Shown here: one piece after another, positions 1 through 42,572 of the stretch
Layout of the letters: each line of letters begins with the position of its first letter
Position numbering within the stretch: position 1 is the stretch's first letter
From: Gemmatimonadota bacterium
Lineage (GTDB): Bacteria; Gemmatimonadota; Gemmatimonadetes; Gemmatimonadales; GWC2-71-9
Direction of reading: 5' to 3'
Length of the DNA stretch: 55,839 bases
Assembly: GCA_003246755.1 (NCBI GenBank)
Contig: QKDC01000080.1
Location: 1-55,839 of the forward strand
The notes under the pieces: model-generated
What the model saw: the letters and a program-made list of their open reading frames with translations, nothing else
What the model was told of the DNA's origin: nothing
The model's database searches: none
Program-made: the position numbers and the translations under genes

Positions 1-164
1 ACGGGCTGGCGGTCCAGGGCCCTGACGCGTCGGTGTACGACCTCGTCAGAGATGCCATCGTCGATGCCAAGGCGCCGCTACGTCGCATGGCTCCCCGAAG
101 GCGTGCCCTGACGGAACTCTTCCGCCGAGATGGCGACGATGCGGAAGATGAGGTGTCCTCTTGA
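1..164 (+). CDS. ABC transporter ATP-binding protein, C-terminal fragment
   Basis: The window opens inside a reading frame (codons starting at base 3) that runs to TGA at 162-164 and ends in EDEVSS. Only about 53 residues are visible. The pattern of an acidic stretch, then LVRDAIVDAKAPLRRM, then ALTELFRRD resembles the C-terminal tail of ABC-2-type ATPases, but no Walker motif is in view. The call rests mainly on context: its stop overlaps the start of an ABC-2 permease (TTGA at 161-164), the usual ATPase-permease order. It could be another protein type; the upstream sequence would settle it. Confidence 0.55.
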   Translation, partial: GLAVQGPDASVYDLVRDAIVDAKAPLRRMAPRRRALTELFRRDGDDAEDEVSS

Positions 165-1084
165 CCGCCCGCCCCCAAGCCCCGGAAGCGACTGGCGCCG
201 TCTTCGACATCGGGTATCAGCGCTACACCGGACCACGAGAAGGCAGGAACCGGGCGCGTTTCGCCGTGTACAAGGATGGGGTTCGGAACGCCTTGGGGAT
301 CGGTCGCGAGACGAGGGCGAAGGTTCTCCCAGGGCTCTTCGTTGGCCTGCTGCTCGTGATAGCCATGGGGATGGTCATGGCGGCCGGAGCGGCACAGAGA
401 CTCATCGGACCCGAGGGACCCAGCCAACTGGACCTGCCCTCCCACTCCGATTATTACGGGATTGCCTCGATCATCATTTTCGTCTTCGGTGCGGTGGTCG
501 GGCCGGAGATGCTCTGTCCTGATCGTCGAAACGGCACCATCAACCTCTATCTCGTTCGGCCCTTGACCGGTTCGGATTATGTCATCGCTCGATGGGCCGC
601 CTTCGTCTCGGTCATGAGCTTCGTGGTGTGGCTTCCGCAGATCGTCCTGTTCGTGGGGTTGACGATGGGCAGCCCTGATCCCTTCGCATACTTGAGACAG
701 CATTGGGTCGACCTGCCCAGGCTCCTGTTGTCGGGGGCCGCGATGGCCGCGTACACCACGACGCTCTCCCTGCTCACCGCCTCCTTCACGACTCGCCGGG
801 CGTACGCTTCCGTGTTCCTCGTGGGGCTCTTCGTCATCACGACACCATTCACGACCGGTCTTGCCAGCGAGATTGGCGGCTCGGCGGGTCAGTGGATCTC
901 CATGTTCAACCTCAGCAACATCCCGGTCCACGTGAACGACCTGATCTTCGGTGAGATCAGCAGCGTGACCAGTGTGGCCCCGGCCCGAGAACTCTCCCAC
1001 CCCATCCTCATCGGGTGGTACTTCCTGTGGACCGTGGTACCCGGAGCCGTGCTGTGGCTGCGCTATCGCCGGATGACGCCGTGA
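161..1084 (+). CDS. ABC-2 type transporter permease
   Basis: A 307-residue inner-membrane permease. An N-terminal cytoplasmic stretch containing DIGYQRYTGPREGR, common in this permease class, is followed by about six hydrophobic segments: near residues 62-86, 105-125, 145-172, 190-210, 215-235 and 283-300. No ATPase motif is present. The TTG start at 161 overlaps the upstream ATPase stop by four bases, and the stop overlaps the next ATPase start (GTGA at 1081). It therefore sits between two ATPases and could pair with either, although the upstream one is the usual partner. The substrate cannot be told; NosY-like, drug or lipid export are all possible. Confidence 0.8.
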   Translation: MTARPQAPEATGAVFDIGYQRYTGPREGRNRARFAVYKDGVRNALGIGRETRAKVLPGLFVGLLLVIAMGMVMAAGAAQRLIGPEGPSQLDLPSHSDYYGIASIIIFVFGAVVGPEMLCPDRRNGTINLYLVRPLTGSDYVIARWAAFVSVMSFVVWLPQIVLFVGLTMGSPDPFAYLRQHWVDLPRLLLSGAAMAAYTTTLSLLTASFTTRRAYASVFLVGLFVITTPFTTGLASEIGGSAGQWISMFNLSNIPVHVNDLIFGEISSVTSVAPARELSHPILIGWYFLWTVVPGAVLWLRYRRMTP

Positions 1085-2019
1085 CGGCCCCTCGCGGGGG
1101 GCGCGCACCGGTCATCGAGGTCAACCATGTCTCCCGTTGGTTTGGGAGTGTTGTTGCCGTGAGCGACGTTACGTTCGACATCCTACCGGGAATTACCGGC
1201 TTGCTCGGTCCGAACGGCGCTGGAAAGACCACACTGCTTCGGATGATCACGGGACTCGCGAAGGTATCGGACGGCACGGTGACGGTGCTCGGCGAACCGG
1301 TTCGCGACAATCCACCCCTCTATCGCCGGATCGGGGTGATGTCCGAGCACGAAACGGTCTACGGATTCATGAAGGGTCGGAACTTCGTGAAGATGATGGG
1401 GCAACTGCGAGGCGTGAGCGATTTGGACGCCGCTGTCGACAAGGCAATCCGGCTGGTGGACCTGGTGGACGCCGCGCACCGGCCAATGGGCACCTATTCG
1501 CGTGGCATGCGTCAGCGCATGCGACTGGCGGCCACACTCGTCCATGATCCGGAGATTCTGATTCTCGACGAGCCGTTGAACGGCGCCGACCCCCGCCAGC
1601 GTGTGCATTTCCAGTCGCTGTTGAGGAAGCTCGCCGCCGAGGGACGGACCATCGTGCTCTCGTCGCACATCCTCGAGGAGGTCGAACAAATCGCCGACAC
1701 CGTCCTCCTCATCGTCAACGGCAAACTGGCCGCTTCGGGAGGGTATCGGGCCATCAGGGCCGCCCTCGACAAGAGGCCTTACCACGTCATGGTCGTGTCA
1801 GACTCCCCGAGAGCACTCGCTGCGGCGGTGGTGCAGCTCGATTCGGTCGACGCGGTGAACATCGACCCCGATGGGACGATCGTGGTGTTGAGTCGGAAGG
1901 TGCGAGAACTCCAGGTCGAATTACCCCGCCTTGCCCAGGCCGCCGGGATCAGCCTGCGTCGCGTGGAGCCACTCGACGATTCGTTGGAGAGTGTGTTCGG
2001 CTATCTGGTGGAGCGGTAG
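1081..2019 (+). CDS. ABC transporter ATP-binding protein
   Basis: A 312-residue ATPase energising the neighbouring permease(s). Walker A GPNGAGKTT lies near residue 43, the signature SRGMRQRM near 140, Walker B LILDEP near 160, followed by the SSHIL H-loop. About 90 C-terminal residues form the accessory domain typical of ABC-2 export ATPases. The signature has SRGM instead of LSGGQ, as is common in this class. GTG at 1081 is chosen because it overlaps the previous stop by four bases and leaves a normal N terminus (VIEVNHVSRWFG); an upstream in-frame GTG at 1015 would lie inside the permease gene. Confidence 0.88.
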   Translation: MTAPRGGRAPVIEVNHVSRWFGSVVAVSDVTFDILPGITGLLGPNGAGKTTLLRMITGLAKVSDGTVTVLGEPVRDNPPLYRRIGVMSEHETVYGFMKGRNFVKMMGQLRGVSDLDAAVDKAIRLVDLVDAAHRPMGTYSRGMRQRMRLAATLVHDPEILILDEPLNGADPRQRVHFQSLLRKLAAEGRTIVLSSHILEEVEQIADTVLLIVNGKLAASGGYRAIRAALDKRPYHVMVVSDSPRALAAAVVQLDSVDAVNIDPDGTIVVLSRKVRELQVELPRLAQAAGISLRRVEPLDDSLESVFGYLVER

Positions 2020-2022
2020 GAA

Positions 2023-2736
2023 ATGGGGTCGGTCTTCCTCCTCACGTTACGCCAGACTGGCGGGCGGCTCCGCCTGGTGATCATGGGTGTGCTGGCCTCG
2101 CTTCCCGTGTTCTTCGCGATCATGGCCGTTCGATCCGCACAGGCTCCATCGGTTGAGGAGTTCGAAGGTGTCGCGCTCGGGGGGATGCTCGCCGGTTCCA
2201 TCCTCCCCCTTGTCGTGCTCGCGGTTGCTATCGTGGTCTTCGGGAACGAACTCGAAGACCGCACGCTCGCCAATCTCACCCTGTCCCCCCTCCCACGCTG
2301 GAAGATCGTTCTCCCGAAGTGGTTCGCGGCGGTCGTGGCTTCGGGGTCATTCATGGTTCTCAGTGCGGGAATCACGAGCCACGTCGGTTTCAACAGTGAC
2401 TGGCGCGCTACCTTGGCGGTGACGGCATCGACCGCAGCCGGGGTGCTGCTCTATGCCTCTCTCTTCGTGTGGCTGGGTTTGAGGTCGTCCAAGGCGATCG
2501 GGCTCGGGCTGGCCTACATTGTCGTCTGGGAAGGCTTCTTCGCGGGCTTCGTGTCCAGCGTCAGGTTCTTGAGTATCCGCCACTATGCGATCGCACTGAT
2601 GCATGGGCTGGACGCGCGACGGTTCGCCACGGAGCCCCATGTCGGGATGGGCGCAACGCTCGCGGTGTCGGCGGTCGTGGTGGTCGGCTTCCTGATCCTC
2701 TCCATCCGTCAACTCCGGCGCATGGACATCCCGTAG
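2023..2736 (+). CDS. ABC-2 type transporter permease
   Basis: A 237-residue membrane protein with about six hydrophobic segments: near residues 16-32, 56-76, 100-120, 130-150, 160-182 and 205-225. It starts three bases after the ATPase stop, with AGGAA just upstream of ATG. The middle segment EDRTLANLTLSPLPRWKIV is typical of ABC-2 permeases between the second and third helix. It forms an ATPase-permease pair with the gene at 1081. It is shorter than the first permease, so the two permeases are related in class but are not recent duplicates. Substrate unknown. Confidence 0.8.
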   Translation: MGSVFLLTLRQTGGRLRLVIMGVLASLPVFFAIMAVRSAQAPSVEEFEGVALGGMLAGSILPLVVLAVAIVVFGNELEDRTLANLTLSPLPRWKIVLPKWFAAVVASGSFMVLSAGITSHVGFNSDWRATLAVTASTAAGVLLYASLFVWLGLRSSKAIGLGLAYIVVWEGFFAGFVSSVRFLSIRHYAIALMHGLDARRFATEPHVGMGATLAVSAVVVVGFLILSIRQLRRMDIP

Positions 2737-38000: not shown

Positions 38001-39181
38001 AGGGCGTTCAAGGCCTGATCGAGGTCCGCGACGAGATCATCGGGATCCTCGATGCCACAAGAGACTCTGATGAACCCGTCGGGGATCCCCTGGTCCGCCC
38101 GTTCGGCGGCGGTGAGGTGGCGGTGCGACGTGAGCCTTGGTTCGGAGACCAAGCTCTCCACGCCGGCGAGGCTGGGAGCGTGCATGAAGACCTTGAGCCG
38201 GCGAAGTACCTTCTCGGCCGCCTCGGGGCCGTCGAGCTGGATCCCCACCATTCCGCCGAAGTCGTCCAGCAGATCTTTCGCGATCGCATGATCCGGGTGG
38301 CCCGGAAGACCGGGGTAATGCACGGCCTGAACGCGCGGGTGGGCGTCCGCCCAACGAGCCACGGTCATGCCGTTCGTGTTGTGGCGCTCCATCCGGATGG
38401 CCAACGTCTTGAGGCCTCGGTTCAGCAGCCACGCGGCGTGGGGGTCGAGCGCCGGCCCGTAGAGTCGTAACAACCGGATCACCTCTTCGACGACCGAGGC
38501 GGATCCCGCGACCGCTCCGGCGATCACATCGGAGTGACCGTTGAGGTATTTGGTCGCACTGGTGATCACGACGTCCGCACCGTGTTCCAGGGGCCGGAGG
38601 TTGATCGGACTGGCGAAGGTGGCGTCGACGATGAGGGCGACCCCCGTTTCCTTGGCCAATTTGGCAACCAGTCCCAGGTCGAGAACGCGCATCACCGGGT
38701 TGGTTGGGGTCTCGATGAAGATGCCTCGCGTCGTCTTGCGGAGGAGACGGCGCCATTGGCGTGGCTGGGCGGGGTCGGCGTAACTGACCGCGATGCCCAG
38801 GCGGGCGAACTCCTCATCGAAGAGCTTTTGAGTGCCACCGTAGATCCACTTGCTGGCGATCAGATGATCTCCCGGCCGGAGAATCGCCAGGTGCGCCAAG
38901 GCGGTTGCCGCCATGCCGCTTCCGAGGAAGACCGCATCCTCGGCACCTTCGAGTAGCGCGTACTTCCTCGCGAGGTCGAGTTGAGTGGGGTTGTTGCCGT
39001 AGCGTGTGTAGAGAACTTCTTCCTCACCTCCGACGGGGTTGACGAAGGTGGAGGACTGGACCACCGGGGCGACCACGGGAGACCAGTCGGGTTTCGTCGT
39101 GGGCCGGCCATGCACGCTGACCGTCGAGAGGCCTGGACGGCTCGCGGGTGGGGGGGGGTCGCCGAGTGGGGGAGGTTTCAC
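37997..39181 (-). CDS. Cys/Met metabolism PLP-dependent enzyme (cystathionine gamma-synthase/lyase family)
   Basis: A 394-residue fold-type I PLP enzyme. SRPGLSTVSVHG opens the domain. YTRYGNNPTQ, GSGMAATALAHLA, IETPTNPVMRVLDL and the PLP-lysine region VITSATKYLNGHSDVIAG are all present, as is the C-terminal SLGG-like APSLAGVESLVSEP. It could be MetB, MetC, MGL or CGL; the motif set does not separate them. GTG at 39181 overlaps the STAS gene stop by four bases. A nine-base C run on the coding strand (39158-39150) lies about eight codons into the gene, in a Pro stretch. Confidence 0.9.
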   Translation of the reverse strand: MKPPPLGDPPPPASRPGLSTVSVHGRPTTKPDWSPVVAPVVQSSTFVNPVGGEEEVLYTRYGNNPTQLDLARKYALLEGAEDAVFLGSGMAATALAHLAILRPGDHLIASKWIYGGTQKLFDEEFARLGIAVSYADPAQPRQWRRLLRKTTRGIFIETPTNPVMRVLDLGLVAKLAKETGVALIVDATFASPINLRPLEHGADVVITSATKYLNGHSDVIAGAVAGSASVVEEVIRLLRLYGPALDPHAAWLLNRGLKTLAIRMERHNTNGMTVARWADAHPRVQAVHYPGLPGHPDHAIAKDLLDDFGGMVGIQLDGPEAAEKVLRRLKVFMHAPSLAGVESLVSEPRLTSHRHLTAAERADQGIPDGFIRVSCGIEDPDDLVADLDQALNAL

Positions 39182-39711
39182 TGGAGCGGGAGCGGCGAGA
39201 AGGTCCCATTCGCTGCGAGAATGAGCCTGCGCAACGCAAGGGTCTGCAGGGCATCGGCGGCACGCTCCACCGACCACTCCAGCCACTCGGCGAGCCGGGC
39301 CGCGCTTCCTGAACCACAGGCATGGACGGCCTCGAAGGCGGAAATCAGGTCAGGCGTCGAACGTCCGAGGACCTGCCGCCCACCCGTGCGAGGCACGATG
39401 GCTATCGCGAGGTCCTGGTTGGTCAGCACGTGATCGATGGCCTCGGCTTGTGTCTCGTCGACACCATGGAGGACGACATAGTGCTCCCCCTCGATGACCA
39501 GCAGCAGTTTCGCGACCACTTCATCGGCACAGGAGAAGTCCAGCACCCCCACCTCCTCGAAGTCGAGGAGGGTCGTTGGGCAGGGCGTATCCGCGATCGC
39601 ACGCTCGATGTGCGATCGAATGGCAGCGCCCGTCGTCCTCGTGACGAGATCCCTCGATGGAGTGGCGAGCGTGGTGCGGAGGAGATCATCTACCCGAATC
39701 TTGAGGATCAT
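39178..39711 (-). CDS. STAS-like (DUF4325-type) protein with predicted winged helix
   Basis: 177 residues. Residues about 20-115 look like a STAS-like domain: TLLDFEEVGVLDFSCADEVVAKLL (47-70) is the diagnostic strand and helix, and Ser60 is a possible phosphoacceptor. Residues about 132-175 (SAARLAEWLEWSVERAADAL, then LRRLILAANGTFSPL) resemble the winged helix found at the end of DprA or in small regulators. That would make it a STAS protein with a DNA-binding output; this part is inference. ATG at 39711 overlaps the stop of the HATPase gene, its likely kinase partner. Confidence 0.68.
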   Translation of the reverse strand: MILKIRVDDLLRTTLATPSRDLVTRTTGAAIRSHIERAIADTPCPTTLLDFEEVGVLDFSCADEVVAKLLLVIEGEHYVVLHGVDETQAEAIDHVLTNQDLAIAIVPRTGGRQVLGRSTPDLISAFEAVHACGSGSAARLAEWLEWSVERAADALQTLALRRLILAANGTFSPLPLQ

Positions 39712-40607
39712 GTGGGTAGCACCTCAGTAGAAGGAATCACGATCTGTACCTGTGCCCCCGGAAAGAAGGGGAGTGCGTCCTGGAGGGGTGGGCCACTGTC
39801 CTCCGCCGGCAGGATGGCCACCCGAGCGGTACCACTCCGAATGGACAGCCACCCGTTCAACTTGAGGATGAATCGTTTGATCGCCGCCAGTCCCTGCCCT
39901 CGTCCCGGTTGGGGAAATCGACTCACGCTGTGAAACAGAGCATCCTCCAGCGCGGCCTTGTCTCCCCAACGATCTCCGTGGTGCCGGGCCTGCGTGGGTT
40001 CCAGGGACGCCCGAAAGCCGATGCCAGAATCGCACACGGCGATCACCACCACTCGGCGGTTCAAGCGCTCTTTCCAGTTGAAAGCGTGCACGGCGACCCA
40101 GCCGGGCCCGCCGGCGTGCTCCACCACATTCTGACAGGCCTCGGAGAGCGACATGGAAAAGCGCATCGAGGTCTGCGCCTCGAGGTGGAGTTCACTCGTG
40201 AGGATCCGTCCGGCACTCTCCTGGATACCTCCCACGACTTGATGAACGTCTTCCGACTGGCGAATCGGTGTCACCGGGAGCAGCACGTCCGAACTTCCCA
40301 CCGGCGCCCGTCGGGGGACCTTGCCGTGGAGTTCGAAAAACTCCGCAGCGTGGTGGAAAAACCCGGCCTTGGCCCAATAGCTGCTCACGGCCTGATCGTC
40401 CGGTACCCTGAGTCGAGGGGTCTCGGCACCCCGTTCCCGGAGGGCCTGCCCCGCCGCGAGCATGGCGGTGAACCCGTACGGTGAGGCCCAACGGGTGGCG
40501 TGGGCATCAAAGAGGAGCTTGCCCTCCGGGGGCCAGGGCTGAAGTCCTGCTGCGACTGCATCGAGACCCTTCTCGTCAAAATAGCGAGGAATGGTGACCA
40601 CGCGCAT
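39708..40607 (-). CDS. ATP-binding protein: STAS-like N terminus and HATPase_c (anti-sigma kinase-like)
   Basis: 299 residues. The N-terminal part (about 1-95, KLLFDAHATRWASPYGFTAML) is STAS-like. Residues about 145-265 are a GHKL ATPase with N-box SEACQNVVEHA (Glu156, Asn160), G1 CDSGIGF (193-198) and G2 GRGQGL (235-240). No phosphoacceptor histidine domain or membrane segment is present, so it resembles RsbW/SpoIIAB-type serine kinases. It starts at ATG 40607, sharing one base with the pfkB stop (TGATG), and overlaps the STAS gene behind it. Likely role: partner switching with that STAS protein. Confidence 0.82.
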   Translation of the reverse strand: MRVVTIPRYFDEKGLDAVAAGLQPWPPEGKLLFDAHATRWASPYGFTAMLAAGQALRERGAETPRLRVPDDQAVSSYWAKAGFFHHAAEFFELHGKVPRRAPVGSSDVLLPVTPIRQSEDVHQVVGGIQESAGRILTSELHLEAQTSMRFSMSLSEACQNVVEHAGGPGWVAVHAFNWKERLNRRVVVIAVCDSGIGFRASLEPTQARHHGDRWGDKAALEDALFHSVSRFPQPGRGQGLAAIKRFILKLNGWLSIRSGTARVAILPAEDSGPPLQDALPFFPGAQVQIVIPSTEVLPT

Positions 40608-41569
40608 CAGATTGCTCCAACCAGATTGCCGCGGAGGAAGTCCGCCAGTCCAGTAGCCCCACGAAATGTGGAATTCTGACCGGCAAACCGAACGGCCGTT
40701 CGGGCCGCTGTCGCATGGTCGTCACCGGCGAGCAGTCGTGCAAACGCAACCGCGCCGAAGACATCGCCACAGCCGGTCGGATCGATGGCATCGACCTGAT
40801 GCGCTGCAAGGCGTTCGGTCCGTACCGCGGTGCCCCCTTCGGCCTCGCGACTCCCACCGAGATCGGAGAGCTTGGTGAACCCAGGCGCCGCCACGTAGAT
40901 CACCCCGCGAGGCCCGACGGTCACGATCAGGAGCCGGACTCCGGCTGCCAGCGCTTGTACCGAGGCCGCCAGGGGATCGTTGGCGAGTTGCTGCATCTCC
41001 TCCTCGTTCATTTGCACGATGTCGAAGCAACTGAACCACGACGGTGCGTTCGGAAGGGCTTGGGGTGTCCGGATCCCATCTTGCTGCATGCCGAGCATGA
41101 GGCTGTGGAGGTCGGCGTAGATCGGTCCGTGAAAGCCGTGGCGGAGCGCCTGCGCGGTTCCCAACTCCAACTCGAACCCCGAGATGAAGTTGACATAGAT
41201 CGCGTCCAGATCACGGACCATCGGTCCCACTTCGTCCCAAGTCCACGCGGGTACTCCGCCAGACATCCGCTCGCAGCGCCGTTCGGAGGTGCGGTAGTGG
41301 AGGACCACTCGGTTGTTGGGGCCGGGGACTTCGACGCAGCGCCCCCCAGACACCAGTCTCCGAAGGCTCTTGAGGAACTGTCCTGCTTCGGAAGCCAGAT
41401 CACTCCCGACTTTGATCAGCGGGACGATTTCCCACTCCGGGGAAAGGGCGGCGTCCAACCCTGCCAGCGCGTAAGCGATCCCACCCCACTCTTCCACGGG
41501 GGGCGCAGCAGGATCTCGTCCATGGATCACATCCCACACCAACGACCCGAGGACCCCGACCTTAGGCAC
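40607..41569 (-). CDS. PfkB family carbohydrate/nucleoside kinase
   Basis: A 320-residue ribokinase-fold enzyme. VGVLGSLVWDVIHGRD begins the fold, EEWGGIAYALAGLDAAL is the substrate loop, LIVTVGPRGVIYVA is near the C-terminal sheet, and DPTGCGDVFGAVAFA carries the catalytic Asp of the PfkB signature (usually DTTGAGD, here with Cys). The sugar or nucleoside cannot be read. GTG at 41569 is preferred: it overlaps the ROK stop by eight bases, has AGGGA upstream and gives the normal N terminus, whereas a frame open to 41752 lies inside the ROK gene. Confidence 0.88.
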   Translation of the reverse strand: MPKVGVLGSLVWDVIHGRDPAAPPVEEWGGIAYALAGLDAALSPEWEIVPLIKVGSDLASEAGQFLKSLRRLVSGGRCVEVPGPNNRVVLHYRTSERRCERMSGGVPAWTWDEVGPMVRDLDAIYVNFISGFELELGTAQALRHGFHGPIYADLHSLMLGMQQDGIRTPQALPNAPSWFSCFDIVQMNEEEMQQLANDPLAASVQALAAGVRLLIVTVGPRGVIYVAAPGFTKLSDLGGSREAEGGTAVRTERLAAHQVDAIDPTGCGDVFGAVAFARLLAGDDHATAARTAVRFAGQNSTFRGATGLADFLRGNLVGAI

Positions 41570-42572
41570 GCGGCATTCCCTGCGCCGGAATGCCGATCTT
41601 GCCTGCATCCCGCAACTGGAGAAACGAGGCCGCCGCACCGTAGACCCCGGCTGTCCCAGGAAGCTCTCCGGCAACGATCCGGCAGGCGGCCACGGCGGGC
41701 TTGAACGCCCTGCGCGCGACTTCCTGCCGGAGTGGGGCGAAGAGTCGTTCACCCGCGCGCGTCACTCCGCCGCAAACGACCACGACTTCCGGGTTGAAGA
41801 TGTTTACGAAGTTGGCGATGCCCGTACCGAGGTACCGCGCGGTATCCCGCACGACTTCCAACGCAACATTGTCCCCGGCCTGCGCGGCCTGGTAGACGAT
41901 TTCCGCGGTAATCCGAGCGGTGTCTCCTCCGGCGTGCTCGAGCATGACGCTCGGTTCTCCCACCTCGATCGCTTCGACCGCTCGAAGCGCGATCGCGGGT
42001 CCAGAGGCGTAGGCTTCGAGACAGCCGTAGTTGCCGCACTTGCACTTGCGACCCTGAAGGTCGAGTGAAGTGTGGCCCAGCTCGCCGGCACAATCGCTCG
42101 CACCATGATACAGCGCACCGTTGGTGATCACCCCTCCACCGATACCCGTGCCGATGGTCACACCCAGGGCATGTTGAGCACCCCGGGCGGCGCCCTGCCA
42201 CCACTCCCCCAGGATGGCGCAGTTGGCATCGTTGTCGAGGGTCGCGGGATACCCCAGTGCGTCGGCCATCCGCTGTCGGAGTGGCAGGTCGACCCAGGCG
42301 AGATTTGGCGTGAGAAACACCACGCCGCTCGAGGTGTCGAGTGGGCCCGGTGCTCCAATACCGACGCCAATGACTTCGGCCTCGGGCTGTTTCGACAGGG
42401 TTTCCTCAATGACCGTGTTGGCGATGATGGTGAGCCGCGCGAGGACGCTGTCGGGTCCCTCCTCCGAGCGCGTGGGCTGGCTCAGCACGGTCCCCAGACC
42501 TGAGCCGTCTTCCCGCACGGCCCCGACGACGAGATTGGTACCCCCTATGTCGATCCCGATCACGTAGCGCAC
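41562..42572 (-). CDS. ROK family sugar kinase (glucokinase-like)
   Basis: A 336-residue kinase. The ATP-binding DIGGTNLVVGAV (residues 8-19), GIGAPGPLDTSSG, sugar-binding NDANCAILGEWWQGAA, IGTGIGGGVI and the zinc motif KCKCGNYGCLEAYASG (CxCGxxGCxE) are complete. No N-terminal winged helix is present, so it is an enzyme rather than a NagC-type regulator. GTG at 42572 has AGGAGGGGG about nine bases upstream. It is the first gene of the chain that continues through PfkB to EnvC. Glucose or N-acetylated sugars are the usual substrates. Confidence 0.92.
   Translation of the reverse strand: MRYVIGIDIGGTNLVVGAVREDGSGLGTVLSQPTRSEEGPDSVLARLTIIANTVIEETLSKQPEAEVIGVGIGAPGPLDTSSGVVFLTPNLAWVDLPLRQRMADALGYPATLDNDANCAILGEWWQGAARGAQHALGVTIGTGIGGGVITNGALYHGASDCAGELGHTSLDLQGRKCKCGNYGCLEAYASGPAIALRAVEAIEVGEPSVMLEHAGGDTARITAEIVYQAAQAGDNVALEVVRDTARYLGTGIANFVNIFNPEVVVVCGGVTRAGERLFAPLRQEVARRAFKPAVAACRIVAGELPGTAGVYGAAASFLQLRDAGKIGIPAQGMPRA

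Follow-up and report, generated by a model that had tools for sequence, protein, structure and literature searches.

Can a partner switch act directly on DNA, with no sigma factor in between? This question is raised by a gene pair in a 55,839-nucleotide stretch of DNA from a Gemmatimonadota bacterium (GenBank assembly GCA_003246755.1, contig QKDC01000080.1), which we refer to in its entirety as the window. The pair encodes a STAS-HATPase kinase-like protein of the GHKL type (P0002, here the kinase) and a STAS-fold protein with a C-terminal extension (P0001, here the partner). A preliminary description, made from the letters of the window alone, had read the extension as a winged helix and proposed that the partner is not a free anti-anti-sigma factor but a STAS protein that may bind DNA itself. 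Nearly all that is known of partner switching concerns the control of sigma factors or STAS proteins of unknown target (PMC8256260). Our analysis favors, at a probability of roughly 60%, a module that switches partners in one step and whose output is a transcription factor; a signaling design usually tied to sigma factors seems here to have been rewired to act directly on DNA. For relatives in other phyla there are strong indications that the kinase acts on a DNA-binding STAS protein; for the lineage of the window itself, this is at present a proposal.

The extension of the partner is predicted to form a winged helix. An AlphaFold2 model of the partner (26 homologues; predicted local distance difference test [pLDDT], 95.6; predicted template modeling score, 0.90) contains a STAS-like domain followed by helices at residues 120 to 132, 137 to 144, and 148 to 160 and strands at 165 to 167 and 170 to 172, which together give the H1-H2-H3-wing fold of winged-helix regulators with a two-strand wing. 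Foldseek matched the first part of the model to SpoIIAA (1tid_B; TMt 0.59, probability 0.98) and RsbS (6jhk_B; TMt 0.52, probability 0.98), with E values of about 0.1, and the second part to the winged helices of AntR, MarR, IclR, and OhrR. Weak helix-turn-helix (HTH) matches in Pfam also occur among members of the family. The winged helix anticipated from the letters is therefore supported by the model, although its span, about residues 118 to 172, differs from the residues 130 to 177 to which it had been assigned.

Relatives in other phyla suggest what such a domain may do. A scan of 84,980 species genomes yielded 472 confirmed relatives, and the best 80 of these include 14 from Nitrospirota (some of them Thermodesulfovibrionales) and 3 from Planctomycetota. 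Among 148 genomes sampled from the phylum Nitrospirota, 21 encode the partner and 18 of those 21 also encode the kinase; in each of the 13 genomes with both on one contig, the kinase gene precedes the partner gene on the same strand at a distance of 0.1 to 5 kb, and the two are nearly adjacent in four. Between the kinase gene and the STAS-winged-helix gene of Nitrospirota and Planctomycetota lies a 19-bp perfect palindrome, TTCAATTGATTCAATTGAA (TTCAATTGA-T-TCAATTGAA), present in 25 distinct genomes with 0 or 1 mismatch in nearly all. It is found 36 to 1,233 bp past the kinase stop codon wherever the kinase shares the stretch; several contigs carry just one of the two genes or stop short of the palindrome site. 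The palindrome starts 23 to 32 bp after TTGAC and typically overlaps the -10 box of a sigma70-type promoter (TTGACA-17-TATGAT) that points toward the STAS-winged-helix gene. By chance, about 0.04 matches would be expected per 10.5-kb locus, and no second copy, with up to 3 mismatches allowed, was present in 720 kb elsewhere in one Nitrospirota metagenome-assembled genome. Moreover, the palindrome occurs where the winged helix is basic and conserved (mean net charge of +6 and 92% identity in the recognition helix in Nitrospirota and Planctomycetota) and is missing where it is acidic and variable (mean net charge of -1.8 in the window's order and -0.5 in its class). As sequence features, the position, palindromy, local restriction, and co-occurrence of the palindrome are those of an autoregulatory repressor site. 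Because the palindrome sits on a promoter reading into its gene, the STAS-winged-helix protein is very probably an autoregulatory DNA-binding switch in Nitrospirota and Planctomycetota.

Evidence that the kinase and partner belong together comes from the DUF4325 family (PF14213). Accepted DUF4325 members in Gemmatimonadota (L100 to L116) are single-chain STAS-HATPase-DUF4325 proteins of about 415 amino acids (aa); one, L102, is HTH-HATPase-DUF4325. The window kinase matches the STAS-HATPase half of the single-chain proteins over its full length (E = 5.6e-18, 261 columns), and the partner matches their DUF4325 half (hhalign E = 1.8e-9, 93 columns), with the common motif DF..V...S.ADE. Since kinase and partner correspond to the two halves of one chain, the gene-fusion argument suggests that the two proteins act together, and this relation is the best evidence we have that they would do so. 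The window partner itself gave no PF14213 match and falls below the Pfam cut-off; matches at E ≤ 1 were found in 6 of 26 Gemmatimonadota relatives (best, 2.3e-4), and scores over the 23-bit cut-off were obtained for the orthologues from Nitrospirota (25.4) and Planctomycetota (25.3). Judged from these profile matches, the window pair is a two-gene form of the DUF4325/HATPase family with a putative winged helix added to the DUF4325 domain, a grouping in line with the proposal that the partner is not a free anti-anti-sigma factor. We found almost no literature on DUF4325 in a search made mostly without subscription journals.

The kinase appears equipped for catalysis. It scores above the curated HATPase_c cut-off and carries the motifs SEACQNVVEHA, CDSGIGF, and GRGQGL; N-box residues E156 and N160, the G1 box D193xGxG, and the G2 box GRGxG are invariant in 24 class-wide kinase sequences. 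Its structure model is only moderate (pLDDT 79), and in a fold search this model matched CheA P4 and usfX-RsfB, with the N terminus matching RsbV/SpoIIAA-type STAS domains. The STAS-like N terminus and GHKL ATPase first read from the motifs are thus borne out, with the catalytic residues intact. Pro43, at the usual phospho-acceptor position of the kinase's own STAS domain, is invariant, so this domain is unlikely to be phosphorylated itself and resembles a pseudo-substrate or a domain for dimerization; no sequence similarity between it and the partner's STAS domain was detectable. A PADLOC match of the kinase to DrmA, a single weak match to a small part of the 1750-position model, was not taken as evidence for DISARM.

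The pair is also widely conserved. Homologues of the partner were found in 98 of 101 genomes from the window's family and order (in all 72 of those of good quality), nearly always in single copy, and, in a phylum-wide sample of 200 genomes, homologues of the kinase were found in 190, which indicates that the two genes are not chance open reading frames (ORFs). The ten genomes that lack the kinase comprise six from an outlying family, two from family f8, and two that are scattered. The kinase gene lies directly upstream of the partner gene on the same strand in 30/30 order-level loci, with the 4-bp overlap scored in 27, and the order PfkB-kinase-partner is kept in 20/20 class-wide loci, with ROK present in 19. 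Within the class, the pair comes close to being universal, and the order ROK-PfkB-kinase-STAS/winged helix is retained. In the window, the gene coordinates and four-base overlap given earlier were right, and both genes are on the minus strand. In genus g48 (L089 6059-6424; G071 looks alike), the partner is 121 aa long and has lost the winged helix, and an intact kinase adjoins it. A plasmid search for either protein gave no match, and a viral scan for the STAS-winged-helix protein gave only one weak partial match. The exact operator had 8 matches in viral contigs, all without a STAS or kinase gene and without TTGACA context, and these were rejected; one viral match to the promoter plus a half-operator lay inside a coding gene and was treated as chance.

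Based on these observations, we propose the following mechanism. The STAS-HATPase protein would bind ATP and dock on the STAS (DUF4325-like) domain of the partner, which it would probably phosphorylate, with Ser60 as the best candidate, or else lock in an ATP-dependent complex. Either event would alter the oligomeric state of the attached winged helix or its binding to DNA. The Nitrospirota and Planctomycetota versions of the partner would bind the 19-bp palindrome on the -10 box of their own operon's promoter and probably repress that operon, comprising their own gene and variable cargo that is often a type II restriction-modification (R-M) system, until a signal to the kinase changes. The Gemmatimonadota module, that of the window included, ends the ROK-PfkB operon with no cargo and no recognizable operator, and its winged helix may have either a different target site or, by now, mostly protein contacts.

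Several observations weigh against this mechanism. The winged helix of Gemmatimonadota is net acidic, varies in sequence, and is lost in one genus (L089), and we found no operator: the palindrome, with up to 3 mismatches allowed, is absent from 813 kb of Gemmatimonadota loci and from the window, and no convincing operator or strong palindrome was seen upstream of the Gemmatimonadota operon. The position directly after the motif Asp (D+1) is F, Y, L, C, V, or R across the partner family and never Ser or Thr (F59 in the window), and at least one DUF4325 relative, L102, has Ala at the Ser60 position (QAFADE) and a HATPase domain in the same chain. Also, a few Nitrospirota genomes encode the STAS-winged-helix protein without a detected kinase, some probably owing to contig breaks, and no phosphatase gene was recognized beside the pair.

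The findings from Gemmatimonadota would be accommodated if, in the window's lineage, the winged helix were a module for contacts between proteins and the pair regulated metabolism or translation in connection with the ROK/PfkB operon, instead of serving as a transcription factor. The strict linkage to ROK and PfkB fits this idea, as do the charge and low conservation of the domain, the lack of an operator, and the presence of the protein-binding winged helices of ESCRT-II among the best fold matches. However, in Nitrospirota a palindrome that fits the homologous winged helix lies at the promoter of its own gene, the class-wide alignment shows R162 and the hydrophobic core of the winged helix to be retained, and Gemmatimonadota operators may be GC-rich and lie outside the searched regions. 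On balance we regard a purely protein-binding role as a serious possibility, if a somewhat doubtful one. With an acidic, poorly conserved winged helix and no operator, DNA binding in Gemmatimonadota is unproven, and the suggestion that the partner may bind DNA draws its support from the predicted fold and from the operator in two other phyla.

How the kinase would act on the partner turns on Ser60. In the partner's motif LDFSCADEVV, residues D58, S60, C61, A62, D63, and E64 are invariant class-wide. Ser60 is invariant in all 113 distinct partner sequences aligned, a set that was filtered on a motif containing Ser60; among the 50 Gemmatimonadota loci and one Nitrospirota set found by whole-protein similarity, none lacks it, and three Nitrospirota sequences whose motif varies also keep it. 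In SypA, the phosphorylated residue is Ser56, which immediately follows the Asp of the motif (PMC10120452, PMC8256260). A gapless alignment of LLDCTETGYIDSSGLG with the canonical STAS sequence LLDFEEVGVLDFSCAD, a weak and local match, places F59 at the acceptor position and S60 one residue later (D+2). Because S60 is at D+2, not at the usual D+1, its phosphorylation, for which the preliminary description had suggested a substitution test, is possible but not given. An alternative is ATP-dependent sequestration without phosphorylation, in which the HATPase protein would keep the partner in an ATP-bound complex, nucleotide state alone would set release, and Ser60 would be a structural helix-cap residue. 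The absence of Ser or Thr at D+1 favors this explanation, and L102, with its Ala, indicates that an ATPase-DUF4325 partnership need not use phosphorylation. We nevertheless consider it unlikely, since all the catalytic residues, the N-box Glu among them, are invariant, Ser60 is kept as described, and 13 of 14 single-chain relatives retain SSFADE.

The stretch between the palindrome and the STAS-winged-helix gene bears on whether the palindrome belongs to that gene. In six genomes, type II R-M genes come first after the promoter, and in Nitrospirota the methylase and endonuclease genes in this interval represent five endonuclease families (Table 1); other cargo consists of ORF6N proteins or small unknown ORFs. 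The simplest reading is that the interval holds an exchangeable defense cassette under operator control. Variation of the cargo between genomes could also mean that the palindrome is part of the cargo, or the site of some unrelated repressor, and does no more than mark an insertion hotspot. But the palindrome is present with zero cargo at L237, L240, L241, and L242, where it lies 33 to 99 bp before the STAS-winged-helix gene; that gene is the sole one always downstream, in the geometry of an autoregulator, and the sampled part of one genome had no second copy. A hotspot marker is in our judgment improbable.

The genome also contains a canonical system, separate from the pair. Contig C22 (L062, about 1-2293, minus strand) carries a cluster of a STAS protein with DSSGLG (110 aa), an RsbW-like kinase (188 aa), and a GAF-PP2C phosphatase, and the one clear SpoIIE-type phosphatase in the genome adjoins this STAS-RsbW pair. 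There are 14 Sigma70_r2 domains in the genome and none on the window's contig (C174), in agreement with the earlier remark that no sigma factor is nearby. That the window pair is itself a canonical anti-sigma (HATPase protein) and anti-anti-sigma (STAS protein) pair with an incidental tail, as its resemblance to SpoIIAB/SpoIIAA and the fold matches of both might suggest, is very improbable given a contig free of Sigma70_r2 domains, the separate cluster on C22, the tail in nearly all members, and the palindrome at the promoter in relatives.

Table 1. Features of the window and R-M genes in the palindrome/STAS-winged-helix interval of Nitrospirota loci
Feature	Location	Strand	Basis
STAS-HATPase (GHKL) kinase-like protein, 299 aa (P0002)	39708..40607	minus	ORF; HATPase_c E 1.4e-7
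N-terminal STAS-like domain of kinase, about residues 1-100	40308..40607	minus	model, fold matches, alignment
HATPase domain of kinase, about residues 110-297	39717..40280	minus	HATPase_c match, conserved boxes
STAS (DUF4325-like)-winged-helix protein, 177 aa (P0001)	39178..39711	minus	ORF; homologues; AlphaFold2 model
STAS/DUF4325-like domain, residues 1-116	39364..39711	minus	fold and profile matches
Predicted winged helix, residues 118-172	39196..39360	minus	AlphaFold2 secondary structure, Foldseek, weak HTH Pfam matches
Codon of invariant Ser60 (D58-x-S60-C-A-D-E)	39532..39534	minus	alignments
ATGA stop/start overlap, 4 bp, coupling kinase and partner genes	39708..39711	minus	ORFs
PfkB-type sugar kinase ORF	40607..41752 (true start probably near 41569)	minus	ORF; conserved neighbor
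ROK-family sugar kinase gene	41562..42572	minus	conserved neighbor
BglII-family R-M	L160 1155-5564		
MvaI/BcnI-family R-M	L166 2269-5540		
MjaI-family R-M	L195 1846-5564		
EcoO109I-family R-M	L178 139-3158; L234 2862-5861		
TdeIII-family R-M	L235 1038-6597	minus	

In the window, same-direction genes upstream of the kinase encode a PfkB-type kinase, whose ORF shares one base with the kinase gene, a ROK-family kinase, a glycosyltransferase-like protein, and LepA; downstream of the partner gene are those for a Cys/Met metabolism pyridoxal phosphate enzyme, FtsE, FtsX, and an EnvC-like peptidase. All neighbor names, the HATPase protein excepted, were read off translated sequences. A PfkB-kinase gene fusion was rejected, as the N-terminal extension of the large ORFs is an out-of-frame shadow of PfkB. 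Almost all class-wide loci (L080 to L099; 40607-45719 in the window) keep the lepA, ROK, and PfkB genes close to the pair, and the conserved ROK-PfkB neighbors point to a possible link with sugar metabolism or sugar phosphorylation. Within the Nitrospirota slot, ORF6N (phage regulator-like) genes are found at L167, L236, L243, and L244. Two families of small unknown proteins (about 80 to 95 aa) recur just before or after the STAS-winged-helix gene (e.g., L160 4727-4969 and L191 5524-5799), and related proteins of about 292 aa with a TIR-like N terminus and no Pfam or PADLOC match occur in or near the slot (L182 5702-6580, L195 1948-2829).

A broader claim would be that these proteins form a new class of one-step partner-switching transcription factors: a GHKL kinase would directly control a STAS-winged-helix repressor without a sigma factor as intermediary, the class would extend over three or more phyla, and in Nitrospirota and Planctomycetota it would gate operons, often with exchangeable R-M genes, via a conserved 19-bp operator; we see an even chance of this being correct. 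We found no papers joining partner switching, a STAS domain, and a winged helix, again mostly without subscription journals. A predicted DNA-binding fold inside a partner switch, together with an exact candidate operator, means that the mechanism could be tested in vitro with a pair of small proteins and a single oligonucleotide. The pair further hints at a function to seek in the almost undescribed DUF4325/HATPase proteins and at a new way of controlling R-M genes, and it points to a near-universal, uncharacterized regulator in Gemmatimonadota.

Comparison with known systems places the pair nearest to the single-chain DUF4325 proteins, which have the same STAS, HATPase, and DUF4325 domains; the window pair differs in being split into two genes and in the winged helix C-terminal to the DUF4325 domain. 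With SpoIIAB-SpoIIAA and RsbW-RsbV (PF13581/PF01740) it shares an ATPase of the GHKL serine-kinase type, intact N, G1, and G2 boxes, and a STAS-fold partner. Unlike in those systems, the kinase has its own STAS domain, the partner has a winged helix and no Ser or Thr at D+1, and no sigma factor is near. Likewise, the partner has the STAS fold of anti-anti-sigma factors (PF01740/PF13466) but not their D+1 Ser/Thr.

The controller (C) proteins of R-M systems are stand-alone xre-like HTH autoregulators with an operator over the promoter of a type II operon. The STAS-winged-helix proteins of the relatives appear to use a similar autoregulatory circuit in R-M operons, a resemblance of circuit design only: here the winged helix is fused to a STAS domain, a kinase gene lies upstream, and R-M genes are absent from many loci. 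Finally, in SypE-SypA and other noncanonical STAS systems, the STAS protein is the downstream output, with no known sigma factor (PMC8256260, PMC10120452). SypA is a single domain whose target is unknown, whereas the window-type partner has an output-like domain and, in its relatives, a likely DNA site.

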